Below, piece after piece: positions 43,806 to 59,640 of a stretch of 64,000 bases of DNA. The number at the start of each line of letters is the position of its first letter. Within the stretch, counting starts at the first letter, position 1. The translations under genes were made by a program, and so were the position numbers. The DNA comes from Pseudomonas hygromyciniae (GTDB lineage: Bacteria > Pseudomonadota > Gammaproteobacteria > Pseudomonadales > Pseudomonadaceae), in contig NZ_CP070506.1 of assembly GCF_016925675.1 (NCBI RefSeq), forward strand, positions 928,501-992,500. Reading direction: 5' to 3'. A model generated the notes under the pieces. The model was not told where the DNA came from. It did not search any database and saw only the letters and a list, made by a program, of their open reading frames with translations.

Positions 43806-43931
43806 CCGTGTTACCGGTGTTACGCGTGTTACAAAAGTATATAACTATATGATTTTAATAGATTTATAGTGCGTTACACAGCTGGGTCTGGTTTGCCGAT
43901 ATGCGTGTTACATGGCGAAGAGGTGTTACAT
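43806..43931 (+). other. Six-iteron module, left copy (candidate replication origin)
   Basis: GTGTTAC occurs at 43808, 43817 and 43826 (9-bp phase). A 38-bp AT-rich tract follows, then GCGTTAC at 43871 and GTGTTAC at 43905 and 43923. Offsets are 0, 9, 18, 63, 97 and 115. The complement of exactly this spacing recurs at 59517-59638. Iterons next to an AT-rich unwinding-type tract are the layout of plasmid and satellite-phage origins. An RBS-like AGGAG and ATG at 43962 follow but the frame is cut by the 186-bp element at 44016. Confidence 0.6.
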
Positions 43932-44015
43932 CAATTAATGCCTTGGCAGGAGCTGACTGTGATGATTGCGGCGGGTGCCATCGACCTAGGGGCTGCGTTT
44001 AGAAGGGCCGCTACC

Positions 44016-44201
44016 GGCCGATTCTGTTGAAAAAGTCGGCCATGGTTGCCACGGCAGAAAAGTACGCGCCTGAGATTGAAATTTTTACTTTGGGCAGAGG
44101 CTTCCAGGCTCAGATTTCACGTAGCAGCGTGTAAAAAAGGCGTTTTCACCGGCCAATATTCAGGCTATTTGGGCGAACCGACTTTTTCAACAGAATCGGC
44201 C
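44016..44201. mobile_element. MITE-like element with 24-bp terminal inverted repeats
   Basis: GGCCGATTCTGTTGAAAAAG and four further bases (44016-44039) are perfectly inverted at 44178-44201. The 186-bp interior has no transposase. Such ends are typical of IS5-type elements, so this is probably a non-autonomous derivative. It lies where a gene start after the left iteron module would be. Confidence 0.75.
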
Positions 44202-44691
44202 AGAAGCAGACGCCACTCAATTCAGCGCGCTGATTGTGATTGCTCTCGAAATCAGGGAACGAGCGACGAGTCCTCCTTTCAAAAGCGTAACGAATCCTTC
44301 GATACCGCTTTCCAGACACTTCAGCTTTTCCATCGGCTATTCCTTATTTGATTCGCATCAGTTCATAGAACACCCGCGATCCGCTCGGATGCCATCAAAC
44401 GAGATGAAAACAACACAGCCGAACCACCAGGTGCGGCATACCGCACATGGTGATTACGGCCTCCCTGGGTGTTCATGGCAATGAGGAGACTGTCCATTAG
44501 TGGTTCTGCGCAACGTCGCGGCGCTGTAGCGCTTGCTGTGATCTTTCGGGCGGCAGGTAGCCGCCGCTGCGGGGTTGAGTTTCCTGACAGACGGCAGGAA
44601 CAGTGCCCACTGCCAGAGGTGACAAAAAATTGATGAGCAACTATGGTTGGCATCAGTTTGCCATCCGTAATCCGGAACGTAGAGGGATCTA
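44202..44691. other. Decayed sequence, no supported gene
   Basis: Short overlapping ORFs on both strands, none with convincing start or family. One plus-strand frame from 44236 may be the remainder of a gene broken by the element at 44016. Confidence 0.45.
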
Positions 44692-45681
44692 ATGTCAAAG
44701 CCACCGCGCCCCGTTGAGTTGGGTAATTTTGTCTGCAAGTTCGGCAGCAAAAATCTCCTCGATTATTTTGAGACTGTTGTCTATCCAGCTTTTGCTGATG
44801 ATGGCCTACTGCGGAAGTACAGTGATACGAAATACTTTTTTGATAAAGTTGAGTTGATAACCATCGACGGCAGAGTTCTACTGGTCGGTAGATTCATAAA
44901 AGATATGATTCTGGAGCGGGAACAGATTTACAAGCAGTCACAGGGTTTGGTAGAAGATCACGATGAAATGCAATCCTCTCCGTCAGCAATATTTGTGCTG
45001 GTTCTGGATGTCCATCGCTTGATCTATTTGAAAGAAACTAAATTTGCACCCACTCTGGAAAATTTTAAATCAACTATTGAGAGTTTCATCAAGGCAAAAC
45101 ACAAACTGTACATTGATAATCTCGCCGAGGAAAGTAAGGCGGCGGGAAACCGAGTGACGAAGAAGAAATTATTGCTTGAGCATTTTCCGCCGACACTAGA
45201 CATAATTCCTTTGACATCAGCTCATAATGTGGAAGATTTCATTCGGCAGTATGAAGTGCTCAGCTCCGTGACCTATAAGTTTTCAGATAGGAACGATGAA
45301 CTGGACAACGAAGGGTTTTTCCGGGCAGTTCAGAGACAGAAAGACGAGGTAGGCAGTCGTACCACGACAATCAAGCACTCAAGCCCAGAGGGGCTAGAGA
45401 AGGAGGCCGTGATCGAAGAGGTTCAGGCTGCAACAGTTCAGGGTAACCAGCGGGTGGTGATGGTGGGCAAAGATTCATCTGGAAACACCGTTAGGGGTGA
45501 CAATAATGATTTCCAGCTCAAAACCTCGATCGAGGTTACCAGTCATACACCGGTTCGTATCGCCAAAAAAATGTTTAGTAAGTTTTTGGAACTCCTGGGT
45601 GATGGTTTGATTCAAGTCGAAAACCCGCCCAAACGTGCGCGTGAGAAACTAGCTCCCTATCGAGACAATGACGATGAATAA
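44692..45681 (+). CDS. Island protein of unknown function, first of a two-gene pair
   Basis: A 329-residue soluble protein beginning MSKPPRPVELGNFVCKFGSK. It is AT-richer than the core genome. The centre (SAIFVLVLDVHRLIYLKETK followed by ENFKSTIESFIKAKHKLYID) alternates strands and helices, and a beta-rich middle (VVMVGKDSSGNTVRGDNNDF) precedes a helical C-terminus. I do not recognise a family. It overlaps the next gene, which encodes a membrane protein, by 14 bp. The soluble-plus-membrane pairing on an island is typical of phage-defence modules, for example Kiwa, but only in composition. Confidence 0.65.
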   Translation: MSKPPRPVELGNFVCKFGSKNLLDYFETVVYPAFADDGLLRKYSDTKYFFDKVELITIDGRVLLVGRFIKDMILEREQIYKQSQGLVEDHDEMQSSPSAIFVLVLDVHRLIYLKETKFAPTLENFKSTIESFIKAKHKLYIDNLAEESKAAGNRVTKKKLLLEHFPPTLDIIPLTSAHNVEDFIRQYEVLSSVTYKFSDRNDELDNEGFFRAVQRQKDEVGSRTTTIKHSSPEGLEKEAVIEEVQAATVQGNQRVVMVGKDSSGNTVRGDNNDFQLKTSIEVTSHTPVRIAKKMFSKFLELLGDGLIQVENPPKRAREKLAPYRDNDDE

Positions 45682-46289
45682 CGATGATCTGTCGGCCAAG
45701 GCTTTGACGGAGGAGAAAAGCCTGTGGGCCGTCTATCTCAGGGCTCGCCGGATCCCTTTCAACTCTTTCAATATTTGGACAACAATCGCCGTTGTGGGTC
45801 TCGTGACCGCTCAATACTGCGTTTTAGAAATCTCTCTTGATGAAAAAACTTAAAATAGTGAGGAATTTTCGTCAATCGCGATGGGGATTGTCGTCTCTGT
45901 GCTTGGGTTCCTTTTGGCGGGGTTCACAATCTTCGCCACCATTAGCCAACCCGATATGTTAGTTGCTATGTCGAGGCACCGTCACGAGAAATCCGGCTTA
46001 TCCTATTTGAAGAATAATTTCTTTATTTTTTATACGGATCTTCATATATTACTTGGTATATACCATAGCTTGCTTATTGATAACAGTTTTCGGGGTTAAG
46101 GGTGGGCTATTGTACAAGCTGATCTCTATGTCGCCGATTGGGTGCCATATCGAAGAGTGGCTTGTAGGTATCTCATATGTTTTTCTTTATGGAGGCATGT
46201 TCTTTCTTATGATGCAGCTTAAGTCCTTTATCTACAACGTTTATCTGTCAGTGATGACCGCTATCAGGTGGAAGGCTATGCAAGATTGA
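45668..46289 (+). pseudogene. Decayed four-TM membrane protein, partner of the preceding gene
   Basis: Reading through gives about 207 residues with TM segments around IWTTIAVVGLVTAQYCVL, GIVVSVLGFLLAGFTIFA, IYYLVYTIACLLITVFGV and GISYVFLYGGMFFLMMQL. Two lesions are visible: an in-frame TAA at 45851-45853 where CAA (Gln) would fit, and a +1 shift in the T6 run at 46026-46031. It overlaps the upstream gene, so the two were one operon. Loss of the membrane partner suggests the module is inactive. Confidence 0.65.
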
Positions 46290-46629
46290 TGAGGAAGAGG
46301 TTACTCCCGAATATCCGCTTCCGGCCAAAAGCCGTCACTGAGTGTCTACGAAAGCCGGGGCGATTCACTCGGCTTTGTAACGAATATTTTGGCGGCGTAA
46401 ATCGCGGTGCTCGCTCAGGAGATTGGAGATAGACAAGTAACTCCACGCGATGGGAAGAACGGCGTATTGGATGCGCAGTTATCGGCGCTGGATACGGCAA
46501 CTGTTGACGGCGTGCCGCTTAATAGCAGAAAACGTAGTATGGGCTAAACCCACAGGGCGAGCGCCGTTCTAGCCGATGTCAATCTTTTAGGGGCCTGCCC
46601 GCTCCTCCCACCAAGGACTGCCCACCGTA
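46290..46629. other. Non-coding stretch with a solo IS3 end
   Basis: 46342-46368 matches the left tip of the IS3 element at 57.5 kb in 26 of 27 positions, inverted. No transposase accompanies it. The rest shows no supported gene and separates the two-gene pair from the DUF4238 gene. Confidence 0.55.
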
Positions 46630-47505
46630 ATGACTAAGACCAGAGATAATCACTTCGTAGCACAATGGCATCAGAAGGGCTTTATCGACGCTGGAGAGAA
46701 ACTTTGCTACTTAACCCGCAGGGATATTGTTCGAAACGGGCAGAACGAAACGATATATTCGAAGAAGTGGCGCACCCCAGCTCAACAATTTTATAGGAAA
46801 GATCTTTACTCTACATTTTTTGGTGACGAGGTTAACGACGACATAGAGCAAAAGTTGTTTGGCCCCATTGACGACAGCGGCTCCAAGGCCATTCGGGCAT
46901 TTTCAACAAACGATCAGTCTCAGTGGCATAATAACTTTGAAAGTTTTTTTACGTATCTGGATGCTCAAAAACTGCGAACGCCGAAAGGTCTGGATTGGAT
47001 TCAAAGCAAATACCCTGAACTAAGCCAACTCTCTCTCATGACAGAGATGCAATCGCTACGATCCATACATTGCACCCTGTGGGCGGAAGGGGTCCGCGAG
47101 TTGGTGTCCGCGGAAAACTCTGACGTTAAATTTATTGTTTCAGATCATCCGGTCACCATTTATAACTACGCTTGCCCGCCCGATTCACTAATGTGCGAGT
47201 ACCCTAGCGACCCAGATATAGCACTGAAAGGATCTCAGACAATATTCCCCCTAAATAAGAATCGCTGTTTAATTCTCACAAACTTGGAATTTGCTAAAAA
47301 CCCTAATGCGGTCGACCCACTCGAGCCACGCACAAACGCTAATCGTGTTCGTCAAAGCCTCGTAAATACAATTGAGTTCATCAACTCCCGAAATCTAACC
47401 TCAGAGGAAGTTACAAAAAATAAATTATATTATCAAGAGCAGAGCCGAGTCTGTGGCTGCTGGGAAAGAAGAGTGGCTTTATCCAGAACTAGAAATAACT
47501 GCTGA
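46630..47505 (+). CDS. DUF4238-family N-terminal part of a probable split gene
   Basis: A 291-residue ORF beginning MTKTRDNHFVAQWHQKGFID, the DUF4238 opening (NHxVxQxxQxxF). A middle segment VKFIVSDHPVTIYNYACPP contains the conserved SDxPV of this family. The last residues after QEQSR are out of frame: a +1 shift near 47452 would continue into the next ORF. DUF4238 proteins are common on islands and have no proven function; nuclease or defence roles have been guessed. Confidence 0.65.
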   Translation: MTKTRDNHFVAQWHQKGFIDAGEKLCYLTRRDIVRNGQNETIYSKKWRTPAQQFYRKDLYSTFFGDEVNDDIEQKLFGPIDDSGSKAIRAFSTNDQSQWHNNFESFFTYLDAQKLRTPKGLDWIQSKYPELSQLSLMTEMQSLRSIHCTLWAEGVRELVSAENSDVKFIVSDHPVTIYNYACPPDSLMCEYPSDPDIALKGSQTIFPLNKNRCLILTNLEFAKNPNAVDPLEPRTNANRVRQSLVNTIEFINSRNLTSEEVTKNKLYYQEQSRVCGCWERRVALSRTRNNC

Positions 47506-49033
47506 CTGGGCGGAGTTAAAAAGTTTATTACTTCCGCCAAAAGATATGATTTACAGGTTTGGTGGAGAAATGTACGCCTCTTTTGCTGATGGCTCCGTTC
47601 ACTACCAAGATGCATTCGGGCGGACCGAGCCCCACGATGAGTTTCTAAACAAGAATATTGTCGAGGAGTCTATTAGCCGGAACGGGAATTGTGGCTGTGG
47701 TAGCGGCCGAAAGTATAAAAACTGTTGCCGGAACACTCCGATCGAGCTTCGAACGACGTGGAGTGTCGCCAGCGTTCGAGAGCGAAACCTAGCATTCTGC
47801 AACTGCATACGAGAAGTTTTAGGACTCAGCAATGGTAAGTGTTGGCAAGACGTGCGTCGAGAGCTGACCAACGAACAAATTTCAGAAATTTATAAATTTT
47901 ACGGGATTCTTTGGCCTCGCAGCACCGACATTTATGCGATGCTGCCGAAGCCGGACGGTAAATTTCGGGCGCTTTATAGCGGAATATTGGACGTTCGCGT
48001 CATAAGCGATAACGCATTACCAGCTGCATCTTTTTTTGACGAGTTCCTTATACAAACGCCTGTTACCAATCCTAATAATATTCGCCCAGAATTCAGCCCA
48101 ATCCAATCGCCAGCTAAGTACAAGTATCAAGCATTAAAAGAATTTCTTTTCATGCTTGATATAGAGCCACTCATTGCGCATGGATTAGTAAACCTTATTC
48201 CCGACCCCTCTGATTTCGACAGTGCTCTAATGAGCGCAATGTTAGAAATGGCGAGAGGCCGGTCTAAAAATCGCACCAAAGACGCTATGAGCGTAGAAGA
48301 CTTAAAGGTAGGCTATAAACTGCAACTGGACGATCTACTTAATTCGACCGCCATGATGCCGAGCGAGGCGAGAGTTCAGTTTTTGGTTCATGATTTCGGG
48401 CTGACGCACGAGGATGCTGAAACAGCTGTGTCTGAACTAGAGCTACTAGCGGAATCTTCTCCGCTAATGTTGTTACAAAAGCTGGACTATCCTGAGGGAG
48501 GACAGTTCATGCAATTTCGAATGGGGCCGAACTACGAAATGGCATTATTCTTAGCTCAAGTAACCGGCTCGATTTTGGTCACGGATAGTAGTTCAAGATG
48601 GCGTGAATTAATTACGGCGCAACACCGCGACCAAGGAATTGTTAACTACCCATGGAACAGCGGGCTAGGCCAATTTTGCTCACTTCCAGTTGATTACGAT
48701 TTTTTACAAAATCTTCGTAAAAGCAATGGCTTATTCTCGGAGTGTAGAGATTTTTTGAAAAGCGCGAATAATTTAGTCCTGAATGATGATCGCGACAGCT
48801 CAAAAATATCAAGACTGACTAATCAAGCTGCTACGCTGCAGCAGAGAATTCTTCAAGCTTATGAGCATGACAAGATTGTAAGTTTAGAAATACTTTCCCC
48901 TAGCGGTGGACTGTATGACGCAAGCGTGCAGCGATTGTTAGTTAGATCAAGCTGTATGCGGTACGAAAATAAAGTTAGATCGGTGTATGGCATTGCGCTT
49001 TCAAATACAAATACTGAATCGCCCCTAGTTTAA
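47453..49033 (+). CDS. SEC-C-motif protein, probable C-terminal part of the DUF4238 gene
   Basis: A 526-residue ORF starting at a GTG that overlaps the previous ORF by 53 bp in the +1 frame. Its opening AAGKEEWLYPELEITADWAE lacks a start-like context, and GGEMYASFADGSVHYQDAFG continues naturally from a DUF4238 domain. Residues 79-93 carry a zinc-binding SEC-C motif (NCGCGSGRKYKNCC). The final codons fall in an IS3-end fragment (49015-49031), so the true C-terminus may be lost. Treating both ORFs as one 810-820-residue gene with a frameshift is my preferred reading. Confidence 0.6.
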   Translation: MAAGKEEWLYPELEITADWAELKSLLLPPKDMIYRFGGEMYASFADGSVHYQDAFGRTEPHDEFLNKNIVEESISRNGNCGCGSGRKYKNCCRNTPIELRTTWSVASVRERNLAFCNCIREVLGLSNGKCWQDVRRELTNEQISEIYKFYGILWPRSTDIYAMLPKPDGKFRALYSGILDVRVISDNALPAASFFDEFLIQTPVTNPNNIRPEFSPIQSPAKYKYQALKEFLFMLDIEPLIAHGLVNLIPDPSDFDSALMSAMLEMARGRSKNRTKDAMSVEDLKVGYKLQLDDLLNSTAMMPSEARVQFLVHDFGLTHEDAETAVSELELLAESSPLMLLQKLDYPEGGQFMQFRMGPNYEMALFLAQVTGSILVTDSSSRWRELITAQHRDQGIVNYPWNSGLGQFCSLPVDYDFLQNLRKSNGLFSECRDFLKSANNLVLNDDRDSSKISRLTNQAATLQQRILQAYEHDKIVSLEILSPSGGLYDASVQRLLVRSSCMRYENKVRSVYGIALSNTNTESPLV

Positions 49034-49046
49034 TAGTCACTTTCTA

Positions 49047-49225
49047 ATGGCCGCTTCTGGCCCAGAGTGTGTAAAAACGCTTCGCCAAAATTGAAGTGTG
49101 CGCGTCTACGTTAAATCTGAAATTTATCGGCACGTCTGCAGATGTGGATTTCGCGTAGAAACGCGATTTCTAGTCCGGTTTTGAGCACCTGACGCGCTCA
49201 AAAACGTTTTTACACAGCCTCGGCC
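49047..49225. repeat. 179-bp inverted repeat, left copy
   Basis: The complement of this segment recurs at 51127-51305 with 7 differences in 179 bases and sharp borders. Within each copy, TGTGTAAAAACG near both ends is inverted, so each copy looks like a small MITE or IS remnant. The pair brackets a 1.9-kb cassette of four small exported-protein genes. Confidence 0.85.
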
Positions 49226-49351
49226 GATTGCTGCCCTTCAGGTGTTTTAATATTGCCCGTCAAGAAGCTTGCTTGGGCCTAGCTTGATGCGTCCCTGGCC
49301 GGGGACTTATGAACGCTTTATCAATGCAGCAACGAGTTCGAGGAAAAGATC

Positions 49352-49630
49352 ATGAGCAGTGACGAAAACGAGCACAAAATCACTCTGCCCCCCGGCTCTC
49401 GATTTCGGCGACAGGCTGGTCCGTATGACTTAGATACCGGCCGTCCGTGTTACGCCGTCCAGGTAATCGCGCCGGATGAGCAGGCGAGACGCCAGGTCGA
49501 GGACAACTCACAGATCATGGGCACTCCTGGCAAGCACTTTTATGTGTGGGATATCAAGAACGGCTCGACTTGGCCTGTTTTTCTGACCCTGACAGTGGAT
49601 GGAGTGATGGTAGGCACGGACAACGACTGA
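49352..49630 (+). CDS. Small cytoplasmic protein of unknown function
   Basis: A 92-residue soluble protein beginning MSSDENEHKITLPPGSRFRR, preceded by GAGGAAAAG. It has no cysteine cluster, signal or TM segment. Not recognised. It is first in the cassette between the 179-bp repeats; the next gene follows after 24 bp, also with a GAGGAAA site. Confidence 0.6.
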   Translation: MSSDENEHKITLPPGSRFRRQAGPYDLDTGRPCYAVQVIAPDEQARRQVEDNSQIMGTPGKHFYVWDIKNGSTWPVFLTLTVDGVMVGTDND

Positions 49631-49654
49631 CAAACTGTTCGAGGAAACCGAAGC

Positions 49655-49867
49655 ATGGAGCCCCGTCATACGCTGATAGCTTTAGGTTTGATTATCGCCG
49701 CGATAATTGCGGCGAATACTTCAGCCTGCAATCCACCGGCACATACAGCATCCTCGACGCAGCAAGCGAAGCAGATCTGCGATGAAGTTTACGATGACAG
49801 CGAGGACGCTAGTGGATACGGCGATTGCGTCAACTCAGCAAAGCGAAGCCTCGAAAATACTAATTGA
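49655..49867 (+). CDS. Small exported or membrane-anchored protein, 70 residues
   Basis: MEPRHTLIALGLIIAAIIAA is a hydrophobic leader followed by TSACNPP; a lipobox is only approximate. The mature part contains CDEVYDDSEDASGYGDCVNS, two Cys that could pair. Not recognised. Its end overlaps the possible upstream start of the next gene. Confidence 0.55.
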   Translation: MEPRHTLIALGLIIAAIIAANTSACNPPAHTASSTQQAKQICDEVYDDSEDASGYGDCVNSAKRSLENTN

Positions 49868-49887
49868 CGGAAAAAGGAAACTCCGCA

Positions 49888-50460
49888 TTGAAATATCTCA
49901 TCGTTTTAAGCGTCACCGTGCTCTTGGCCGGCTGTGGTCAGGAATCCAAGCCAGCAACTGTACTTCACCTTGCTCCGATCACACCTGGTGCTATTCCCGA
50001 AAAGATCGGTGGCTGCGGGGAAGGTTGTAAGAAACTGGACAAGTTTGCTAAGTGGCAACCGCTGCTCGCTCCGCTGGTTGAAATGCACCGCAGGCAGGAG
50101 AAGTGCTCCTCAGTTGAGTATGCGATGCCCGATACCGACTCTGACCCAGTGGACCCGAAGTTTTATGTACAGTGCAAAGAAGTGAGAAGCGGCCAGCTTT
50201 ACAACACCTTCTACACTCGGACACAGATCGAGATGGGCACGCCGGCTACGAGTGAGCCGGTTTCCCGTGCGTATGCTGAACCTCTTTGTGCAGGCCAATT
50301 GGCTGAAAAACTGCCCGGCGCTACAATTGCCAATCAACGCTTTTACGAAGCTCCGAACGGCTCAGTACGTCTAACCTATGACTTAAAAGTAAATGGCGTC
50401 GACAAGAAGGCGGCTTGTCTAGTTAGCCACGAGTCTGTTGAGTTCAACGTCGTCCGGTAG
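49888..50460 (+). CDS. Lipoprotein of unknown function
   Basis: A 190-residue protein starting at a TTG about nine bases after AAAGGA. The leader YLIVLSVTVLLAGC ends in a lipobox LAGC. The mature part has six further Cys (C-GEGC, KCSSVEY, VQCKEV, LCAGQ, ACLVS) and is likely disulfide-rich in the periplasm. Not recognised. It precedes the Ltp-like gene by 200 bp without obvious genes. Confidence 0.6.
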   Translation: MKYLIVLSVTVLLAGCGQESKPATVLHLAPITPGAIPEKIGGCGEGCKKLDKFAKWQPLLAPLVEMHRRQEKCSSVEYAMPDTDSDPVDPKFYVQCKEVRSGQLYNTFYTRTQIEMGTPATSEPVSRAYAEPLCAGQLAEKLPGATIANQRFYEAPNGSVRLTYDLKVNGVDKKAACLVSHESVEFNVVR

Positions 50461-50659
50461 CTCAGTAATCAAGGAAAAAATGACTCTCGCAATAAACGTG
50501 ATTCTTGTCCTATTGCCGCAGCTGCAGGCACTGATTGACCAAGTGAAAGCCGAGGAAATTCGCTCAGCCCCTTCAACGGGACGTGTCATGTAAAGTTGAG
50601 CCGTAAGACAAGAATTTTAAGGCCGTTAGAGGCGCTGCATGGGTTCTGGAGATATTCCG

Positions 50660-51037
50660 ATGAATTTTTTGAAAGTAATATTGGCTGTCACTTTTTTTGC
50701 TGCTGCTCCCTCATGGGCTGGAGATTTGACTGGACCTCAAAATAATGCAGTCAGATCAGCGAAGCAGTATCTCAGCATGACGGGCTTCTCACGGAATGGG
50801 CTTATTCATCAGCTTTCATCTGATGCTGGAGAGGGTTTCGACGTTTCTGACGCTACGATAGCAGTGGACAGCATGAACATTGATTGGAACCAGCAGGCGG
50901 TGAGGTCTGCGAAGCAGTATCTCAATATGATGGGCTTCTCGTGCAAAGGCCTCATTAAGCAACTTTCCTCGAGTGCTGGAGAAAAATACACTGTGGACCA
51001 AGCAACCTACGGGGCAAAACATGCAGATGGTTGCTGA
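50660..51037 (+). CDS. Ltp-family exported protein (superinfection-exclusion-like)
   Basis: A 125-residue protein with a signal peptide (MNFLKVILAVTFFAAAPSWA) and two tandem copies of the Ltp helix-turn-helix repeat: AVRSAKQYLSMTGFSRNGLI-HQLSS (about 29-75) and AVRSAKQYLNMMGFSCKGLI-KQLSS (about 79-125). The repeats are also alike at DNA level. In the Streptococcus phage TP-J34 Ltp lipoprotein such repeats block DNA injection by binding the tape-measure protein. A periplasmic homologue on a mobile cassette suggests superinfection exclusion; that is inference. Confidence 0.7.
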   Translation: MNFLKVILAVTFFAAAPSWAGDLTGPQNNAVRSAKQYLSMTGFSRNGLIHQLSSDAGEGFDVSDATIAVDSMNIDWNQQAVRSAKQYLNMMGFSCKGLIKQLSSSAGEKYTVDQATYGAKHADGC

Positions 51038-51051
51038 AAAACGGCGTGCTT

Positions 51052-51078
51052 TAAATCGCCCCTAGTTTCGTAGACGCC
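51052..51078 (+). mobile_element. IS3-end fragment
   Basis: TAAATCGCCCCTAGTTTCGT and the next bases match the left tip of the 57.5-kb IS3 element in about 23 of 27 positions. A shorter copy (TGAATCGCCCCTAGTTT) lies at 49015-49031, left of the other 179-bp repeat. Confidence 0.55.
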
Positions 51079-51126
51079 ATCAAGCTACAAGGAAGGGTTG
51101 CTAACCCTGCATAACTGTCCGCTTTT

Positions 51127-51305
51127 GGCCGAGGCTGTGTAAAAACGTTTTTGAGCGCGCCAGGTGCTCAAAACCGGACTGGAAATCGCGTTTCTACGCG
51201 AAATCCACATCTGCAGACGTGCCGATAAATTTCAGATTCAACGTAGATGCGCACACTTCAATTTTGACGAAGCGTTTTTACACACTCTGGGCCGGAAGCG
51301 GTCAT
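51127..51305. repeat. 179-bp inverted repeat, right copy
   Basis: Inverted partner of 49047-49225 with about 96 percent identity over the same length. Confidence 0.85.
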
Positions 51306-51616: not shown

Positions 51617-51679
51617 GATTGGACCGATGGTAGGCCCGAAGCAACAAGCTCTCGCAGATTACTTCGGGGTAGGTTTGGG

Positions 51680-52522
51680 TTAGGCAGCCAGCAGGTCAAG
51701 CAGGCTGTGTTGGTGCGAGCGATCCACGAGTTCGCGCCAGGTCCAGCTTCCAAAGTGCTCGCCCTGTTCGGGGATATCCAGCTTCATCAGTGCGACCGGG
51801 TCACGACTAATCAGGTTGCGTGCTGCCCACAGCTTGCCGCCTGTCTCAAGCAGTGCTTTCGCGGCCTCATTCCATTGTTCTTCTAACACTGTGTTCGCCA
51901 GATGAGCCGCTTGGTTTTCGATTTTGGCGCGTTCTTTTTGTGCCTCTGTGATGTGCTGATCAATCGTCACGAGCTCCTGCTCCAGCGCGTTGATGAGCAG
52001 TTGTTGACGGCGGTGATGTTCAACCGCAATCGTGAGGTTTTTTGCTGCTTTTTGAGCTTCGGCGTTGGCCGCTTTCTCGCCCTCCACATCGCCCCAGGCG
52101 ACAGCCTGCGCATAAGCGGTGGCTGCGTCCGTTTCAGCTTGTCGAGCTTTTGCCATGTCCTCCTGATCGCTCTGGCGGACCTGCTGCAACCGGGTCTCGA
52201 TACTGGTGCGCTTTTCGTTGAGTTCCATCTCGTCGGCTTTCCAGGTTGCCATGGCGTTGATGTAGTCCGCAGCCAAGCTCTCACGGTTCGCCAGTGCCTC
52301 GAGGCGATCAATCTTTTGATTCAGGTGATAGATCTCAAGAGATCGAGAGTCGATGCGCCTTTTGTGATCGTTGATTTCATCCTGCACGGCCCGTTGACGG
52401 CCCTGCTGGATAACCTCGGGGCTTTCCAGCGCCTCTTCGAAGGGCGCCAGGTCGTGCTGAATGCTCTCCATTTCGACGGTCAAAGTGTCGCGGCGGTCTT
52501 TCAGTTCTTGGATAGTGTTCAT
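51680..52522 (-). CDS. Coiled-coil island protein
   Basis: A 280-residue protein that is coiled coil for most of its length (heptads from about 5 to 215, e.g. SLEIYHLNQKIDRLEALANR) with a short globular C-terminus. It lies 98 bp downstream of the primase gene on the same strand, a usual partner in Pseudomonas islands of this kind. Function unknown. Confidence 0.65.
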   Translation of the reverse strand: MNTIQELKDRRDTLTVEMESIQHDLAPFEEALESPEVIQQGRQRAVQDEINDHKRRIDSRSLEIYHLNQKIDRLEALANRESLAADYINAMATWKADEMELNEKRTSIETRLQQVRQSDQEDMAKARQAETDAATAYAQAVAWGDVEGEKAANAEAQKAAKNLTIAVEHHRRQQLLINALEQELVTIDQHITEAQKERAKIENQAAHLANTVLEEQWNEAAKALLETGGKLWAARNLISRDPVALMKLDIPEQGEHFGSWTWRELVDRSHQHSLLDLLAA

Positions 52523-52620
52523 CTGTATTGTCTCTGGGTACTACGGTTGATAGGGATAGTTATCGAACGGCTGGCGAGGCCGGGATTGAGCCGGCGCTAC
52601 CTCGATCAGCAGGCATGCCA

Positions 52621-55509
52621 TCAGGCGGCCTTGGCCTCGCTTTCATCCGTTCCAGGAACTGTCTTCACCACATAGCAGCGTTGAGGTCCTAACCCCGGCA
52701 GGCGAATCAAGCTGTACGCCTTGCCGTCGCTTCCCGGTTCGAGCACGCCCCGTTGCAGCAGCTCCTTATTCACCGCACTGATATTCATGCCCTTGAAGAT
52801 CTCGGCCCTCCAGGCTTCAGGCAGCACGTAGTAGGTGTTGGTGGTGTGCAGGGCGTCGCCCATTCCGTGTTCCAGGGTCTTGCGAAAGCCCAACCGATCA
52901 ATCGTGCGAGGGCCGTGCTCATCGATCTTGGCGGCGGCAGATTCCCAACGAGTAAAGCGGCTTTCTCCAAATCGCTCGATCACCTGCCGTAGCCGGGCCA
53001 AGATCGCATCACCCTCGAAGTTACCGGCACCGCCACGTTCGGCCAGCCACGCATGCAGGCAGACGCGTGCAGCCGTTGTGGCCGTGCCATCGGGCCAGCC
53101 AGTGACGCCGAAGGCGGTGGCCAACTCCCCGGCTGCTGCGGCGAGGCCGAAGCGAAGGGCGGCGCGTTGCGCCTGACCACTGGCCGACGTGGGTAGGTTT
53201 TGGGTGATGAACTGCTCAACAGTGCGACGAACAATCACCGACCACCTGAGCATTTCTCCGGGCGCGCATAGCGCGTGTAGGAAAGTGGTGAGGGGCGTGC
53301 CGTAGTATTTGGCTACACGGACCTTGAGTGCATCGGAGAGGGCGGCAGCGTCTTCAAAACCGTTCAGTACATCGAACATGCCGAGGCCCTTGCTGGCATC
53401 CGCTGGCACCGCAAGCATGCGCACCTCCATGCCCGCTTTCAGCTCCTTGTTGGCATCCGCCATGTGCTGCGCCAACGTCTTCTCGCCCGTCGAGAGAAAC
53501 AGCAAGCGCCACTCCTGCACCTGTCGGCCCGCCTGTCCTCGATCATTGGCACGGGCCTTACCGGTGCCGTTGCCGAGCATGTACACCGTTTCGCCAATAA
53601 TGCGCGGGTCGCACATGCCGATTTCATCCAGGACTAGAAGACCGTCTGAGTGGGCTGCGGCGATGGACTCCAGAGCGTTATCTGTCGAACGCCACGAACG
53701 CACCAGACGCGGCCCTCCATAGACCGAAGCAGCGACTTGCAGGTGAGTGGTCTTGCCCCCGGAACTGTCGCCGTACAGGTGGAAGCCGCCCGACTCATGC
53801 CCCAACATGTTCAGCAGAGGGCCCGCAAAGGCCACAGAGACGACAAACGCCAAGCGGTGGTTGCCAACGCACAGGGCGCCGATTTGCTGCTGCCATTGCT
53901 CCAGAGAGCCCGCCTCGTTGATCGGTGGCAACTGCGCACCGGCCTCATAAAAATGCAGGTGTTCGGCGTGCGAGCCGATCTGTTGTTCGGGCAATAGGAA
54001 CGCGTTGTTGTGCCAGCCCAAGCGCGTCACCAATCGTGCGCGCTGGGCGCTATCGAAGCCACCGAGATAGCTCTGCAGGTCATTACGAGCATTGCGCCCT
54101 GATCGGCTTCCGGCAAGGCGCAGGCCCATGTCTACTAAGGGGCCGAGTACGTCTTTGCCGAAGTCGCCGGTCATAGTCCTGGCTGGAATATTCCAGCGTT
54201 TTTTGGCGCCGTCCGGGTCATCGAACTCGACCAATAAACCCCAGTTGTGGCCCTTGTCGTCGCGAGTGCGAGCGATGATTTCGAGAGGCGAACACACGGG
54301 ACGCGCCTCGCCATCATCGCCGGAATAAAACACCCCTTCAGGCGTCAGGCGAAAGCCGCCCGGCAACAGGTCATTTTTCGATTTCGCAGGGCGTTTGGCG
54401 GGCGCCTTGGTCTTTGGTTCTTGAGGTTCGGTGGGCTCAGCAACACTGCCGAAAAACTCGCCGTTGTGCACCAGCTCGGCGACGTGGCCTGCGGTCCAGC
54501 CTTTGGCTACTGCATCCGCTGCATCGTCGCCGTCTGCCCATTTTCCGCCTTTCACGAGCGTCGGTTTGCCGCCTTTGCTGCTGGGCTTTAGCTTGAACAC
54601 GTCGAGGGAGATTCGCTGCACTGACGCGGCGCCCAGCTCAATCAGTTTGAGCTCGACGGCATCCATGCAGGTCTTTCCGCTGGCATCGTTATCCGGCCAC
54701 AGCACAACGCTTCGCCCTTTGAGTGACGTCAGATCGGCCTTGTGCCAAGAGTTGGAACCGTTCGGCCAGCAGGTGGCCACGTGTTCGGGCATCAGTTCAG
54801 CGGCGGCGTCAGCAGCTTTCTCGCCTTCACACAGCACTACAGGCGCATCTGCACGCTGTACCAGCTCATCCAGGCGCAGCAATGGCCTAGGTTCCGGCAA
54901 GCCTTGCCAGCGCCATTGTGTGGTTTGTCCATCGGAGCGGTTGCACCAGGTTAGCGGCGCAAAGACCTTTCTTGGTTTGCCGTCTTCATCGGGGCCCAAG
55001 TCGAAGCGATACAGCGCCATGACCGGTTGGCCCTGCGCATCGCGATAGATCCATACCTTTGACGGAGCTCCGTGTTGCCGGTGCTTGGCTGGGCATTTGT
55101 TCATGGCCTCGGCCGGGATCGGCTGAATTGCGATCCACTCCGGTGTTGCGCTCTTGGCTGGTGTGCTTTTGGTGGTTGCAGATCCTGCGGAAACGCTGAG
55201 CAGATCTGCCAGTTTTTTAAAGGCCTCAACGTCCGTGCCGCCGTCGATGTAACGCACCAGGTCGATCAGGTCGCCGCCCTTATCGCCGGTGGCAAAATCC
55301 GCCCAGGTGCCTTTGCTCAAATTGACCTTGAGTGAGCCCGCACGTTTGTCCGTGCGCGTGGGATTCGGTGCGGTGTATTCCTTGCCGCCGTCGACGCGTT
55401 TGCCGTTTGGCAGCCAGTGAGTAACGACGCGGTCGATGTTCTTCAGGGCGGCGCTTTTTACGTCCGCAAAGCTGGGACGTTTTGAGGTGTTGCCGATGCG
55501 CTGGGTCAT
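52621..55509 (-). CDS. Primase/helicase with TOPRIM-like and DUF927 domains
   Basis: A 962-residue replication protein. The N-terminal 100 residues resemble a CHC2-like primase head without the zinc cysteines (GTWADFATGDKGGDLIDLVR). A TOPRIM-like domain has PVVLCEGEKAADAAAEL near residue 222 and LWPDNDASGKTC. The C-terminal DUF927 ATPase has Walker A YGDSSGGKTT at about 578-587 and LLVLDEIGM as Walker B. Such proteins replicate satellite phages and integrative elements (P4 alpha is the functional analogue). It overlaps the next upstream gene by 4 bp. Confidence 0.85.
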   Translation of the reverse strand: MTQRIGNTSKRPSFADVKSAALKNIDRVVTHWLPNGKRVDGGKEYTAPNPTRTDKRAGSLKVNLSKGTWADFATGDKGGDLIDLVRYIDGGTDVEAFKKLADLLSVSAGSATTKSTPAKSATPEWIAIQPIPAEAMNKCPAKHRQHGAPSKVWIYRDAQGQPVMALYRFDLGPDEDGKPRKVFAPLTWCNRSDGQTTQWRWQGLPEPRPLLRLDELVQRADAPVVLCEGEKAADAAAELMPEHVATCWPNGSNSWHKADLTSLKGRSVVLWPDNDASGKTCMDAVELKLIELGAASVQRISLDVFKLKPSSKGGKPTLVKGGKWADGDDAADAVAKGWTAGHVAELVHNGEFFGSVAEPTEPQEPKTKAPAKRPAKSKNDLLPGGFRLTPEGVFYSGDDGEARPVCSPLEIIARTRDDKGHNWGLLVEFDDPDGAKKRWNIPARTMTGDFGKDVLGPLVDMGLRLAGSRSGRNARNDLQSYLGGFDSAQRARLVTRLGWHNNAFLLPEQQIGSHAEHLHFYEAGAQLPPINEAGSLEQWQQQIGALCVGNHRLAFVVSVAFAGPLLNMLGHESGGFHLYGDSSGGKTTHLQVAASVYGGPRLVRSWRSTDNALESIAAAHSDGLLVLDEIGMCDPRIIGETVYMLGNGTGKARANDRGQAGRQVQEWRLLFLSTGEKTLAQHMADANKELKAGMEVRMLAVPADASKGLGMFDVLNGFEDAAALSDALKVRVAKYYGTPLTTFLHALCAPGEMLRWSVIVRRTVEQFITQNLPTSASGQAQRAALRFGLAAAAGELATAFGVTGWPDGTATTAARVCLHAWLAERGGAGNFEGDAILARLRQVIERFGESRFTRWESAAAKIDEHGPRTIDRLGFRKTLEHGMGDALHTTNTYYVLPEAWRAEIFKGMNISAVNKELLQRGVLEPGSDGKAYSLIRLPGLGPQRCYVVKTVPGTDESEAKAA

Positions 55510-55778
55510 GGCGCAGTACTCCCTGCATGCAGCGCATCGTTGACGTCATCAATCAGCGCTTTTGCCATTTCGCCCAGGTAGAAAGCGGGCCAACTGAACC
55601 GCTCGCCCTCGTTACTCATGGCTGCATCGAGGGTCAGTTGATTGGCGTAGTACTGAAACAGCGATATGGCCTCAAGTGCGTCCTCGATCGGCACGCCAGC
55701 ATTGACCCTAAACAGCTTTTGAGGACCGCTGGCAACGCACGAGAATTCGGCACGCCCGAGAGTATTGGCAGTGTTCAC
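55506..55778 (-). CDS. DUF3077 family protein
   Basis: A 90-residue protein with the family pattern LFRVNAGVPIEDALEAISLFQYYANQLTLDAA. These small proteins are common in Pseudomonas islands and prophages; function unknown. It overlaps the primase start by 4 bp and the next upstream gene by 4 bp. Confidence 0.75.
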   Translation of the reverse strand: MNTANTLGRAEFSCVASGPQKLFRVNAGVPIEDALEAISLFQYYANQLTLDAAMSNEGERFSWPAFYLGEMAKALIDDVNDALHAGSTAP

Positions 55779-56059
55779 AGGGCACCGCCTTTCTGGCCCA
55801 TTGGCACGGAGGAGGCATCACCGTACATGGTGAGCGTTTTGATTAGGCCCAAGGTGCCGCGTACGTCCCAAATAACGGACGACAGCACGCGGTTTGAAAG
55901 CAGGGGTTTATCGCCGTCTAAGTGATCTTCCAAAAGCATGAGAACTGAATCGGCACGGTCGAGCGCGCAGGTGATGGCGTCGATAGGTAGGCCGGCTTCA
56001 GCGTCTTGGCTGACGCAGAGCAGATCCTCGGGCAGCGCAAAGCCTGGGAGTATGCTCAT
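55775..56059 (-). CDS. Small island protein, 94 residues
   Basis: MSILPGFALPEDLLCVSQDA followed by GLPIDAITCALDRADSVLML; the GxPxDxA.....D pattern is similar to the DUF3077 neighbour, so the two may be distant paralogues. The ATG at 56059 overlaps the next upstream stop by 4 bp; longer upstream starts would run through that gene. Confidence 0.65.
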   Translation of the reverse strand: MSILPGFALPEDLLCVSQDAEAGLPIDAITCALDRADSVLMLLEDHLDGDKPLLSNRVLSSVIWDVRGTLGLIKTLTMYGDASSVPMGQKGGAL

Positions 56060-56214
56060 TGGGCACCCCCTGCGGCTTCCAGAGCTCGGGCTTTGGACAT
56101 ATGGGCGTTGTAACGGGAGAGGCGTGTAGCGAGGCTGGAGTTGGCGTGTAAAGCGGCGAGAGCCATTGCTCGATGAGCGGCGGCGCGAATTTTGGACGGA
56201 TTGGTGGCGTGCAT
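56056..56214 (-). CDS. Small basic island protein, 52 residues
   Basis: MHATNPSKIRAAAHRAMALA... is Ala/Arg-rich and helical. The ATG at 56214 follows AAGGAG. It opens the primase operon, being coupled by overlaps to the genes downstream. Confidence 0.6.
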   Translation of the reverse strand: MHATNPSKIRAAAHRAMALAALHANSSLATRLSRYNAHMSKARALEAAGGAQ

Positions 56215-56545
56215 TGGGCGAAACTCCTTTGTCTGGGGAGCTACCACGGTTCGCCGTCAAACGAATAAGGGTGGCAGCTGTACGCAGGTTGACGGACCGG
56301 GGACAAAGGAACCCGGCATACCCGAAGGTATCCCGCGCACAGCCGCCATAAACAGGATGTGCAGACACAAAAAAAGCGCCTGCAATCGTGATGGGGCGCC
56401 TGTGCGCCAATGTCTGAACGGGCCGTCAAACCCGGTCGCTGAATTTGCAGCGACAGCCAGAGAGTAACGTCCGTTTTTTGAAAGTGCAACTGTGCTGACG
56501 GCTTGCGGTTTTTTTTGATGCGGCATAAATTGGACAGGCATGTAG
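56215..56545 (-). promoter_or_regulatory. Leader region of the primase operon, P4-like (ash/icd type)
   Basis: On the minus strand this region has the repeated CAGGCGC motif before a T7 run (56365-56411) and open frames ending in GMPGSFVPGPSTCVQLPPLF. Both resemble the leaders of P4-like elements, where Ash/Icd-like frames overlap an immunity RNA. No well-supported ordinary gene is present. I treat it as a leader with possible small RNA; details need alignment. Confidence 0.4.
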
Positions 56546-56586
56546 ATTTACCTCAACGCCTCCGGTTGCCGCCGGGGGCGTTTTCG

Positions 56587-56925
56587 TTAGTGCTGGGAGG
56601 CGATACGACTCAAGTTCATCCAGAACAGGTGATTGCCATGCCGGGAGTTTGTGAGCATTAACTCCAGCGCAGTCACGTTGGCCTGGACACTCGGAATGAG
56701 CTGTTCGGTATCCTCAACCAGCACGCCTTCTGGCGGCTCGATTGAGAGCATCACCCACTCGCGAGATGGCCAGACGAGAAGCATTACGTGAGCCCCTTTT
56801 GATATGGCGTCATCGCGCAATGTACGGAGGCGGTCTTGGCCTTTGGCAGTAACGTTAGGTAGAAGGCCGATGCCGAGTAAGTCGCCGGTGTCCGAAGTTG
56901 TTTGTGGCAGGAACATAGGAGTCAT
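56587..56925 (-). CDS. Island protein of unknown function, 112 residues
   Basis: A soluble protein beginning MTPMFLPQTTSDTGDLLGIG with a strand-rich middle (HVMLLVWPSREWVMLSIEPP). The ATG at 56925 overlaps the AlpA stop by 4 bp, so the two are coupled. Not recognised. Confidence 0.6.
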   Translation of the reverse strand: MTPMFLPQTTSDTGDLLGIGLLPNVTAKGQDRLRTLRDDAISKGAHVMLLVWPSREWVMLSIEPPEGVLVEDTEQLIPSVQANVTALELMLTNSRHGNHLFWMNLSRIASQH

Positions 56926-57188
56926 GCAGCCACCCTGTCGCGAGCAGCGATGCGTGCGTGAGTCCAATCCAAAACTTCAGAAAGGACCCATGCGACGGGC
57001 GCCCCCCGAGCGGTGCTGTCGGTGAGTTTTACTGCTTGTGGAAAGCCGCTTTCAGGCTGGCTCATGAGCTTGTAAATGGTGGGGCGGGCGAGGCCTACAA
57101 TGGCCATTACTTCAGTAACTCTGATTAACCTTGTTGCGGGCGCCAGATCTTTGATGTGTACGGATTTGGAGGGGATAGAGCTCGTCAT
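56922..57188 (-). CDS. AlpA-family phage/island regulator
   Basis: An 88-residue MerR/excisionase-like HTH protein: LIRVTEVMAIVGLARPTIYKLMSQPESGFPQAVKL is the AlpA signature with the Ser replaced by Pro-Thr in the recognition turn, and ending WVLSEVLDWTHARIAARD. AlpA proteins activate integrase or act as excisionase. The ATG at 57188 is preferred over one 30 bp upstream. Confidence 0.82.
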   Translation of the reverse strand: MTSSIPSKSVHIKDLAPATRLIRVTEVMAIVGLARPTIYKLMSQPESGFPQAVKLTDSTARGAPVAWVLSEVLDWTHARIAARDRVAA

Positions 57189-57535
57189 AGTCGTGCCTGT
57201 AAAGTGAAAGACAGGCACAGACTAAGAGGCAAAAAAAAAGCAAACATGGTTTGCTTTTCTTCCACTGCATAAAAATTATCTTGGTAGAAAACCGCCTTTC
57301 TTAAGGTATTTCCTTACGGTTGGTATAGAGCCCTTGCCCTGTTTAACGAGTATTTTGACGAGGTCGGCCGCTGATATTTTGGGGTCAATAGCGATTTGCT
57401 TTATTGCCGATTTGCTTATCTCTTCAAAAAGCTTCTTGGTGTTCTCTTGCTTCGCTGTCCCCGGCTTGCGGTTGGCTTTCCCGGCTGCTTTGGCCCTTTC
57501 CGACGCTTTTGCTGCAAATGCCTGATCCAGTGCAG

Positions 57536-58767
57536 TGAATCGCCCCGGGTTTCGTAGACACCTCCATGCCTTAAAATGAGGCCAATCAGGAGGTGCCATG
57601 AGCAACCCGCGTTATCCCGAAGAATTCAAAATCCAAGCAGTCAATCAAGTGACCGAAAAGAAGCTGCCTGTCGCTGAGGTAGCCGCCCGTCTCGGCGTGT
57701 CGACGCATAGCCTCTATGCCTGGATAAAGCGCTACAGCAAACCTCAAGAAGAACGGCAGCAGGATGATGATCAGCACGCTGAGCTACGTCGTCTGCGAGC
57801 GGAACTCAAGCGCGTCACTGAAGAGCGAGACATATTAAAAAAAGGCCGCCGCGTACTTTGCCAAGGAGTGCGGCTGAAGTACGCCTTTATCAAGCAGCGC
57901 GCGGGCGACTATTCGATTCGACGGCTTTGCCTGACGCTGAAAGTCCATCCCAGCGGTTATTACGCCTGGCTGTCTGAGCCGCAATCTGTACGCGCCAAAG
58001 ACGACCAGCGACTGCTGGGTTTGATCAAGCATTCCTGGTTGGAGAGCGGTGGCGTTTATGGCTATCGCAAAATCCACGACGATCTGCGCGAGGTCGGTGA
58101 GGATTGTGGTCGTCATCGTGTGGCGAGGCTGATGCGTCTTGAAGGTCTGCGTTCTCAGACAGGTTATCGACGCCGCCCTGGAAAGTACGGCGGTAAGCCA
58201 GCGGTCGTCTCACCCAATTTGCTGAAGCGCCAGTTCGATGTTGTGGAACCCAACAAGGTTTGGGTAACCGACATCACGTACATTCGTACGTATGAAGGCT
58301 GGTTGTATTTGGCGGTGGTACTGGATCTGTTTTCTCGGCAGGTCGTTGGCTGGTCAATGAAGTCGCAGATGACCAGTGATTTGGCTATTGATGCGTTGTT
58401 GATGGCGGTTTGGAGGCGTAAACCGAAGCAAGAGGTGATGGTTCATTCCGACCAAGGCAGCCAGTACAGCAGCTCCGATTGGCGCAGCTTTTTGAAGGCA
58501 AACAATTTGGTTGCCAGCATGAGTCGCCGAGGCAACTGTCATGACAACGCCGTGGCCGAGAGCTTTTTCCAGCTTCTGAAACGGGAACGGATCAAGCGAA
58601 AAATCTACACCACGCGGGAAGATGCTCGGAGTGATGTGTTTGATTACATCGAGATGTTCTACAACGTAAAACGCCGCCATGGTTTCAACAATCAGCTGTC
58701 ACCGGTAGAGTTTGAAAAGCGTTACGCAATGAGCTTGCAAGGTGTCTAGAGAATCCGGGGCGATTCA
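57536..58767 (+). mobile_element. IS3-family insertion sequence, 1232 bp, with 3-bp CAG duplication
   Basis: Ends TGAATCGCCCCGG are inverted (57536-57548 and 58755-58767), with partial matches continuing to TAGACACC. Flanking CAG at 57533-57535 and 58768-58770 is the target duplication, confirmed by the reading frame of the interrupted gene. Length and single transposase locus fit the family. Confidence 0.92.
57598..58749 (+). CDS. IS3-family transposase, OrfA-OrfB fused in one frame
   Basis: A 383-residue protein: N-terminal HTH and leucine zipper of OrfA (to EERDILKK, residue 82), then directly the OrfB integrase with D225 (WVTDITY), D285 (VHSDQGSQY) and E321 (NAVAESFF). In related elements the two are joined only by -1 frameshifting at A-AAA-AAG. 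Here the run is seven A (57837-57843), one more than the slippery heptamer needs, which puts OrfB in frame without slippage. This would make the fusion transposase constitutively. Confidence 0.88.
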   Translation: MSNPRYPEEFKIQAVNQVTEKKLPVAEVAARLGVSTHSLYAWIKRYSKPQEERQQDDDQHAELRRLRAELKRVTEERDILKKGRRVLCQGVRLKYAFIKQRAGDYSIRRLCLTLKVHPSGYYAWLSEPQSVRAKDDQRLLGLIKHSWLESGGVYGYRKIHDDLREVGEDCGRHRVARLMRLEGLRSQTGYRRRPGKYGGKPAVVSPNLLKRQFDVVEPNKVWVTDITYIRTYEGWLYLAVVLDLFSRQVVGWSMKSQMTSDLAIDALLMAVWRRKPKQEVMVHSDQGSQYSSSDWRSFLKANNLVASMSRRGNCHDNAVAESFFQLLKRERIKRKIYTTREDARSDVFDYIEMFYNVKRRHGFNNQLSPVEFEKRYAMSLQGV

Positions 58768-59514
58768 CAGTTCGCAGAAACCGAGATGCGCTCAAGTCGT
58801 TCCGGAGGTTGTCCGTGTGGTCAGCTTCTTGGTATAGCGAAGCTAACATCAATGTTTTTGAGGTCTCGCCATACCGAATGGCGAACTCCTCCCGGGCCTC
58901 TATTTCAAGTTCGCTGCTACGCTCCCTTTCCCTTTTGAGGAGAGAAGCATACAGGGTGGCGTCAGTCAGCCTGATCTGTTCGACTAGATCATAGTCAAGA
59001 TCGTAAAGACGCAGCTCTATGTTGAAAAGCCAGTTGCCAAGTGCCGTTACTGCCTCGACTGCCTGAATGAGCGCATAGGTTGCTACAAGCTGGGTGTCGC
59101 TGGCTGGGTGATTGATCCCTAGGACGCCTCGAATGACTCTAGGTAGTGAGGTCGCTTCGGAAAAACAAACGTGCTGATCAATCACGCTTCGAAGATGAAA
59201 CATCTTCGTCGTAGTTGATTCTGCGCAGTCAGCGTAGCGGCCGTCCTCTAGCCAGTAGGACATCGCGTTGTCGATGCAGTGAAACGCATCGCTAAATCTT
59301 TCGGAGAATTGGTGATACAACGACAAGGTGCGAACAGCGCTTTCAACATCGTCGAGATCCCAAAATAGACAGTCGACATCTACACCGGCGATTTCTAGTT
59401 CCACACCTAGCTCAGTTTCCATTTAGGTCTCCCCGCCGCCCCGAGGCCAGTGAGCTAACGCAGCGATTTTCGGATGGAAACGCTGATGCCAGCAGGGTTG
59501 CGGGCGTGGCCGTT

Positions 59515-59640
59515 TTGTAACACGACTCCTCCATGTAACACGTGGTGCTCAGAAGTTTTTCCGTGCGTGTAACGCTAAATATATTCAATAAAAACAATGG
59601 TTTATATGTTTGCGTAACACGGGTAACACCCGTAACACCA
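59515..59640 (-). other. Six-iteron module, right copy (inverted)
   Basis: Read on the minus strand, GTGTTAC starts at 59638, 59629 and 59620, then after an AT-rich 38-bp tract GCGTTAC at 59575, and GTGTTAC at 59541 and 59523: offsets 0, 9, 18, 63, 97 and 115, identical to the left module. Spacer sequences do not match. It lies between the integrase stop and the start of the IS-interrupted gene. Confidence 0.6.

Follow-up and report, generated by a model that had tools for sequence, protein, structure and literature searches.

The Rep helicases of Staphylococcus aureus pathogenicity islands (SaPIs) and phage-inducible chromosomal islands (PICIs) recognize iterons through their C-terminal domain (PMC7581432; PMC6092414). 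Escherichia coli PICI origins consist of two iteron sets around an AT-rich region, and a cloned rep-ori unit of a Gram-negative PICI replicates (PMC6092414). The satellite phiAH14b is packaged by a helper; its authors mention homologues in other Pseudomonas genomes, and the words iteron and DUF927 are absent from the main text of that paper (PMC4936722). Here, we analyzed a stretch of 64,000 nucleotides from Pseudomonas hygromyciniae (contig NZ_CP070506.1, positions 928,501 to 992,500; hereafter the window), which carries an island that, judged from its sequence, is P4-like in outline, with an integrase beside a tRNA-Met gene, AlpA, a C4 RNA and a DUF927 protein of 962 amino acids. Two mutually inverted six-iteron modules, one next to the integrase gene int (P) and one distal to it (D), lie on this island. 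We consider it very probable that they serve as the binding and loading sites of the DUF927 protein, the putative initiator of the island, and that the pair acts as a split origin. The modules and their parts are as follows.

43808..43929, forward strand: distal (D) six-iteron module, from pattern scans
43808-43814, 43817-43823, 43826-43832, 43905-43911 and 43923-43929, forward strand: direct iterons of D
43873-43879, forward-strand reading: inverted iteron of D, GTTACAC
43833..43872, forward strand: AT-rich gap of D, 86% AT over the measured part
43794..43807, forward strand: box before the first D iteron, ACCCTAATAAAACC, resembling ccCct..aaAa.c.
59517..59638, reverse strand (reads 59638-59517): integrase-side (P) six-iteron module, from pattern scans
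59632-59638, 59623-59629, 59614-59620, 59535-59541 and 59517-59523, reverse strand: direct iterons of P
59567-59573: inverted iteron of P, reading GTGTAAC on the forward strand
59574..59613, reverse strand: AT-rich gap of P, 86% AT over the measured part
59639..59652, reverse strand: box before the first P iteron, CCCCCTAACAAATG, less well kept than the D box

The window contains 14 copies of GTGTTAC, where 3.4 are expected and 100 shuffles gave eight at most; 10 of the 14 copies lie inside the two modules. The triplet GTGTTAC-N2-GTGTTAC-N2-GTGTTAC, with up to three mismatches, is present twice in the window and never in the shuffles; in the whole genome of 6,286,888 bases it has two sites, both in the island, and the reversed control pattern has none. 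A scan for G[TC]GT[TA]AC that presupposed no spacing returned offsets 0, 9, 18, 63, 97 and 115 in both modules. It thereby bore out the original prediction, which had been made from this stretch alone, and the same holds for its placement of the modules, facing inward at about 1.3-1.4 kb from the attachment (att) sites (11-mer at 42499, with its right-hand counterpart at 61072). D is separated from the 3' end of the DUF927 gene by 8.7 kb, and P from its 5' end by 4.0 kb. The two modules are 15.8 kb apart in the integrated island; in the predicted circle they would face each other head to head, with about 2.8 kb between them across att.

The same modules recur in related islands, whereas their absence there would have spoken against the original prediction: of 398 Pseudomonas genomes sampled evenly, 64 contained the triplet at no more than two mismatches, and the reversed control was at zero in every genome listed. 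Triplet matches are often paired, one on each strand, 13-16 kb apart. For comparison we assembled 61 loci, namely the window, 40 stretches around triplet matches and 20 around DUF927 genes (14 at 70-79% identity, five at 83% or more without the triplet, and one distant). An int homologue is present in 53 of the 61 loci and a P module in all 53, starting 30 nucleotides after the end of int in 38 loci and within 24-39 nucleotides in 50. The D module accompanies it in 51 of the 53 (50 by the first scan; L307 on closer look), and was not found in L313, where the contig ends. While 35 of these 53 loci are the window or were chosen by the triplet, the 18 chosen by DUF927 alone contain P in 18 and D in 16 cases.

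Where the core is present, its order is constant: int, P, an optional open reading frame (ORF), AlpA, small genes, DUF927 and D. The small genes comprise o56587 in some islands, followed usually by o55775 and o55506, and between DUF927 and D there are usually one or two genes and room for cargo before D; in the window, cargo occupies this place. P and D are 6.5-16.7 kb apart across the loci, and in ten islands with GTGTTC-type iterons D follows DUF927 at about 1.2 kb (six islands), 2.3 kb (two) or 6-7 kb (two). The association with DUF927 is strong: 55 genomes, on a list compiled by eye, encode a DUF927 protein that is nearly complete in length and at least 83% identical, and 50 of them contain the triplet, versus 14 of the 343 others (Fisher p 1e-44). 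In the five exceptions (L312-L316), the P module carries a different or a variant iteron word. Among the 14 triplet genomes without such a DUF927 protein, four keep DUF927 remnants; of the other ten, L280 and L284 alone were covered as long stretches. In two loci (L281:8838-9708; L282:5867-6813), two divergent modules are separated by less than 1 kb, which gives the impression of two islands adjoining at their distal ends. A search for the window module in other genera of the order gave matches in four of 293 genomes, each of them a member of the window's own genus. Scans of the wider collection with the triplet alone gave many repeat genes and were used for one scoring only, and a scan of viral contigs with the whole DUF927 protein confirmed no relative.

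The geometry of the modules is conserved. Exact offsets are found in 65 of 76 modules, counted with a scan that fixes iterons 1-3 and allows one base for iterons 4-6, in a set that leaves out modules scoring under 37.9; 22 clusters at exactly 0, 9, 18, 63, 97 and 115 were counted by eye in 41 loci by the spacing-free scan. At a score of at least 37.9 there are 87 modules in the 61 loci and none in 3.66 Mb of simulated sequence. Altering the period of the triplet, or shifting iterons 4-6 together, leaves no module, whereas shifting iteron 4, 5 or 6 alone still returns 59, 26 and 19 modules, respectively, because the score tolerates the loss of one iteron.

The original prediction had read iteron 4 as a direct GCGTTAC, and in this it was mistaken. 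The bases of GTTACAC are 85-100% conserved among the 76 modules, the leading GC only 47-59%; as the scan itself required the GTTAC, the independent evidence lies in the final AC (98% each). Since GTTACAC is conserved, and since this position reads GGAACAC where the word is GTGTTCC, the module consists of three direct, one inverted and two direct iterons. Modules with GTGTTC words mostly have an extra inverted copy near offset 87 and no direct copy at 97, while L304 has both. Partial conservation extends to the upstream box ccCct..aaAa.c. (64 unique modules) and to an AA at offset 35-36. Spacers had been called unrelated, which holds loosely for the window pair (47% identity, against a mean of 37% for P and D of different islands) and fails for five islands, whose P and D are 78-81% alike. 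Across 41 GTGTWAC islands, spacer identity is 45% for P with P, 39% for D with D, 43% for P with D of the same island and 37% for P with D of different islands, which weakly suggests two long-separated module lineages.

The iteron word co-varies with the C-terminal part of the DUF927 protein, which is located as follows.

52621..55509, reverse strand: DUF927 primase-helicase, 962 amino acids, open throughout; candidate iteron-binding initiator
52624..52989, reverse strand: DUF927 C-terminal part, residues 841-962, co-varying with the iteron word
52675-52689, reverse strand: residues 941-945, within the co-varying part

The iterons of P and D change their word jointly, the forms being GTGTWAC, GTGTTCC and GTGTTCT/C; L309, with P only, has GTGTAAT. 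In all 52 DUF927 proteins the motif at residues 944-946 fits the commonest word of the island: RCY goes with GTGTWAC (41/41), R[AV]Y with GTGTTC[CT] (10/10) and RTY with GTGTAAT (1/1, L309). The corresponding C-terminal residues are G-x-Q-R-C, [APS]-K-x-R-[AV] and G-S-T-R-T. Residue 945 is the sole DUF927 column without a residue common to both classes, in an alignment that drops proteins with internal stops or low coverage, and AlpA, INT, o55506 and o55775 have no fully separating column; the comparison covers these four. The co-variation set omits L280-L282, L284-L287, L306 and L317.

Between-class identity of the DUF927 proteins is about the same as within-class identity up to column 850 and then falls below it: in the last three intervals of the alignment it is 0.70, 0.62 and 0.27, against within-class values of 0.80/0.86, 0.75/0.73 and 0.46/0.54, those for GTGTWAC being taken from a hand-picked set of diverged proteins. 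The separation z amounts to 8.7-9.8 in columns 840-960, against 1.6-7.0 in the remainder of the protein; it is at most 2.8 in AlpA, 2.3 in the integrase and 4.3 in the two small neighbors. Mosaic proteins are instructive in this respect. The protein of L307 (GTGTTCT) is 94% identical to that of L305 (GTGTAAC) over the helicase part, but at the C-terminus it shares 94% identity with L308 (GTGTTCT) and no more than 64% with any protein of the GTGTWAC class. In L304 (GTGTTCC), GTGTWAC proteins are the nearest relatives as far as column 900, and only the final residues belong to the other type. Over columns 1-410, L312 (GTGTTCC) shares 94% identity with L316 (GTGTAAC), but in the helicase part it already stands closer to the GTGTTCC group (97% versus 90%), which means that the switch in this protein extends beyond the C-terminus. 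Mapped onto trees, the word changes twice for residues 841-962, four times each for residues 1-840 and 381-840, and five times for residues 1-380, against about nine changes with shuffled labels on the DUF927 trees; AlpA requires five changes, the integrase six, o55506 six and o55775 four. GTGTTC words cut across the tRNA targets Leu (L298), Arg (L304), Met (L307, L310) and Thr (L308), whereas the integrase type follows the target (Met, Leu, Arg, Thr). The word follows the C-terminal part of the DUF927 protein, independent of integrase type, tRNA target and AlpA. A C-terminal domain that sets iteron specificity, as in PICIs and SaPIs, is thus suggested here by co-variation.

Inverted paired arrays also occur near the DUF927 genes of some plasmids and of the packaged satellite phiAH14b. 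The circular plasmid pMNOD05 of Methylobacterium nodulans (20,286 bp) encodes a DUF927 protein 37.5% identical over 94% and carries two inverted GTGTGAC modules of equal spacing (8-mers; direct at 0, 9, 18, 84 and 105, inverted at 61), one of them 84 bp after the DUF927 gene; the 10 scanned of its 20 listed genes include ParA and resolvase domains and no replication domain. Skermanella plasmid pSR-7 has two arrays at 0, 9, 18, 50, 72 and 81, with the fourth iteron inverted in one and direct in the other. In L317, a Pseudomonas element with a distant DUF927 protein, the arrays flank the gene, one reading 0, 9, 18, inverted 40, 72 and 81 and the other having five units. Two inverted GGGGAACA arrays, of six and five units, lie at 9300-9527 of phiAH14b, after the helicase gene. 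A second repeat cluster of that satellite, GCGAACC/GGTTCGC (L318:14619-14678), lies away from the helicase gene and is perhaps a regulator's site. Of nine records that do not belong to the island family, two clear arrays are present in three and partial ones in two; phage U10 and pMaqPC2 carry partial arrays, and pTAO100 and MT835519 weak repeat clusters only.

In the mechanism that we propose, the C-terminal residues of the DUF927 protein, about 120 in number, would read the three direct, one inverted and two direct iterons in fixed phase; a helicase ring would then assemble at the module, open the DNA and start replication after excision. P and D, mutually inverted, would form one split (bipartite) origin, with the two modules either loading two helicases in opposite orientations or acting as an origin and a crr-like helper site. 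Where cargo lies beyond D, the arc across att is longer, so that the short arc of the window is not general. Paired origins for the DUF927 primase-helicase had been suggested before, and we favor this reading since the word co-varies with the C-terminal part; from it we infer direct binding, helicase loading, origin activity, joint action and a need for both copies. Autoregulation by the initiator is a possible additional role of the modules. More doubtful, and offered tentatively, is the generalization that DUF927 replicons possess a split, quasi-symmetrical origin, in which each inverted module would load one helicase ring, bidirectional replication would need both, circularization, by joining the module heads across attP, could license the origin, and a C-terminal code would set the word. 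If this were true, such a short code would let islands in one cell replicate independently. Collectively, the modules and the DUF927 protein are candidates for the origin and the initiator in a large group of Pseudomonas islands and offer a natural series of protein-DNA specificities with mosaic proteins. As a rule, inverted iteron arrays that occur in pairs close to a DUF927 gene can aid in finding origins of other DUF927 plasmids and satellites.

One might view the modules instead as arm-type sites that hold the integrase for excision and integration, as in lambda or P4; P adjoins int, and both window modules are within 1.5 kb of att sites. However, the integrase type tracks the tRNA target while the words cut across it, INT has no separating column and six word changes on its tree, and D is located 6.5-16.7 kb from P; we regard this explanation as very improbable. 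Operators for AlpA or another island regulator, controlling the genes after each module, would be in keeping with the inward orientation of both modules, each followed by a block of genes, and with the regulatory nature of AlpA-type proteins. Yet the genes that follow D vary, the window cargo ORFs o44692 and o49352 matching none of the 60 other loci, and AlpA offers neither a separating column nor a separation z beyond 2.8; six phased sites, one inverted, occurring twice per element would, in our judgement, also be unusual for operators. AlpA had been named as a possible binder, a suggestion that we abandon because the word does not co-vary with it, and the dispersal over unrelated genes that would mark an ordinary transcription-factor operator is not what we found, the two triplet sites in 6.29 Mb both lying in the island. 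An operator function is accordingly unlikely in our eyes. A helper-phage target, a packaging site of the pac or cos type, or a partition site might suit two copies near the ends, and a satellite of this general type, phiAH14b, is packaged by a helper (PMC4936722). The word, however, follows a replication protein encoded by the island itself, and similar paired arrays reside on the plasmids pMNOD05 and pSR-7, which leaves us with very little belief in such a function.

Several observations weigh against the modules being a split origin read by the DUF927 protein. The co-variation is partly phylogenetic, as class separation is also seen at other DUF927 columns (z up to 7.0), the trees are only a few changes apart (four versus two, with the neighbor o55775 also at four), and the placement of L304 and L309 on the C-terminal tree is loose. 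The C-terminal part has no PDB hit; with Pfam, three of 25 members matched anything, namely RPEL at a best E of 0.19; and a profile comparison with the DNA-binding domain of P4 alpha (1ka8), made with shallow profiles, found nothing. One PHROG, phrog_1139 (DNA primase), is matched by all 25 members. L309 is without a D module in the stretch fetched, and no arrays were found in the stretch fetched around DUF927 of L306, nor, by an exact-word scan of such stretches, in pORIO1 and p.C. L280 (3149-11491) has int, P and D but no DUF927 gene; there, a truncated ORF after P meets the remnant of the gene that normally follows DUF927, so that the core has apparently been deleted and the element could be a dependent passenger or a relic. 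Finally, in GTGTTC-word islands the gap after iteron 3 is not AT-rich (mean 52%/48% AT in P/D modules).

The AT-rich gap postulated by the original prediction is real in both window modules, and GTGTWAC-word modules average 64%/70% AT in P/D; it is not a general feature. An AT-rich gap as the general melting site was rejected, since the AT content of the gap differs between the word classes; melting may therefore occur elsewhere. In the GTGTTCC-word modules of L298-L301 and L304 the gap, which is not AT-rich, holds, by eye, an inverted repeat resembling GAAAGCC...GGCTTTC.

The remaining features of the island are listed here.

59669..60910, reverse strand: tyrosine integrase, stop about 30 nucleotides before P
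56922..57218, reverse strand: AlpA-type excisionase/regulator, from Pfam and PHROG searches
56267..56353, reverse strand: C4 antisense RNA (P4-type immunity), computed match
56415..56467, reverse strand: a1/b1 targets of the C4 RNA, computed match
51680..52522, reverse strand: gene after DUF927 (o51680), core block of most related islands
42499..42509, no strand assigned: left att-like 11-mer GTACTTGGTGG, repeat of an 11-mer from the tRNA end
61072..61153, reverse strand: right att copy, beginning at 61072, and tRNA-Met (61077-61153)

The integrase at a tRNA gene and the C4 RNA with its a1/b1 targets are traits of P4-like satellites, and the C4 RNA was also found in all seven further loci scanned (six islands and phiAH14b). 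No match to sid, delta or psu (capsid size and polarity) was seen among 10 ORFs searched with Pfam and 10 with PHROGs, and DUF927 takes the place of the D5_N/Pox_D5 domains of alpha-type primase-helicases. The 962-residue protein matches Pfam PF06048 (E 7.6e-83) and PHROG primase and primase/helicase families; its PDB relatives are 8tch ("Pathogenicity island protein") and 5dgk ("Active helicase"), the latter of which we take to be Cch of the staphylococcal cassette chromosome (SCC). By its sequence it would qualify as a self-loading Rep helicase of the PICI/SaPI type.

Just inside D, an element of about 200 bp (44010-44207) with 30-nucleotide inverted ends that are 93% complementary looks like a small non-autonomous insertion element. 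An insertion sequence, presumably IS3-like, occupies 57535-58768, with 29-nucleotide inverted ends (86% complementary) and a transposase-like ORF of 383 amino acids; it is flanked by AlpA and by the ORF at 58685-59422 and overlaps the 3' end of this ORF. Among the cargo is a pair of genes (46630-49033), one for a DUF4238 protein and one for a protein containing a cysteine-rich stretch; the two are adjacent in another island as well (L303:8016-10385; 72% and 56% identity). Over a short stretch, the cysteine-rich protein matches E1-E2/E2 models of PADLOC (best E 2.4e-07), and the pair is possibly a defence module.

Our literature search, for which most subscription journals lay outside coverage, returned no description of replication sites for these Pseudomonas islands; DUF927 and iteron appeared together only in the context of SCCmec, the combination of DUF927, Pseudomonas and satellite gave nothing, and neither the split inverted geometry nor the match of word and residues was found in print. 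With the rep-ori units of SaPIs and PICIs the island shares a DUF927-related AAA+ helicase, C-terminal recognition of iterons (here as proposed) and iterons in two sets. However, the PICI origin is positioned directly 3' of rep, with two sets flanking one AT-rich region, an arrangement that the window does not have; it contains two complete six-iteron modules 15.8 kb apart instead. The plasmid pMNOD05 resembles the island in its DUF927 protein and its two inverted, equally spaced modules, but it is a circular plasmid with a different spacing. Like the island, phiAH14b possesses int, AlpA, a C4 RNA, a TOPRIM primase, a DUF927-related helicase and two inverted arrays, one of 3-1-2 and one of 3-1-1 layout (five units found). 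Unlike the island, it encodes primase and helicase in separate genes, its helicase is 32.5% identical over 57% of the query, and its two arrays, with the word GGGGAACA, lie together after the helicase gene.

The likeness to P4 extends to two cis regions, an integrase and C4-type immunity, and the P4 ori1 even has six type I iterons arranged as three direct, one inverted and two direct. In P4, however, these start at 0, 10, 21, 43 (inverted), 86 and 96, ori and crr differ from each other, with crr made up of two 120-bp repeats of five iterons each, and relatives of alpha carry PF19263/PF08706/PF03288 rather than DUF927. The paired modules of the Pseudomonas islands bear on a question that P4 raised, namely why a replicon keeps two separate initiator sites.

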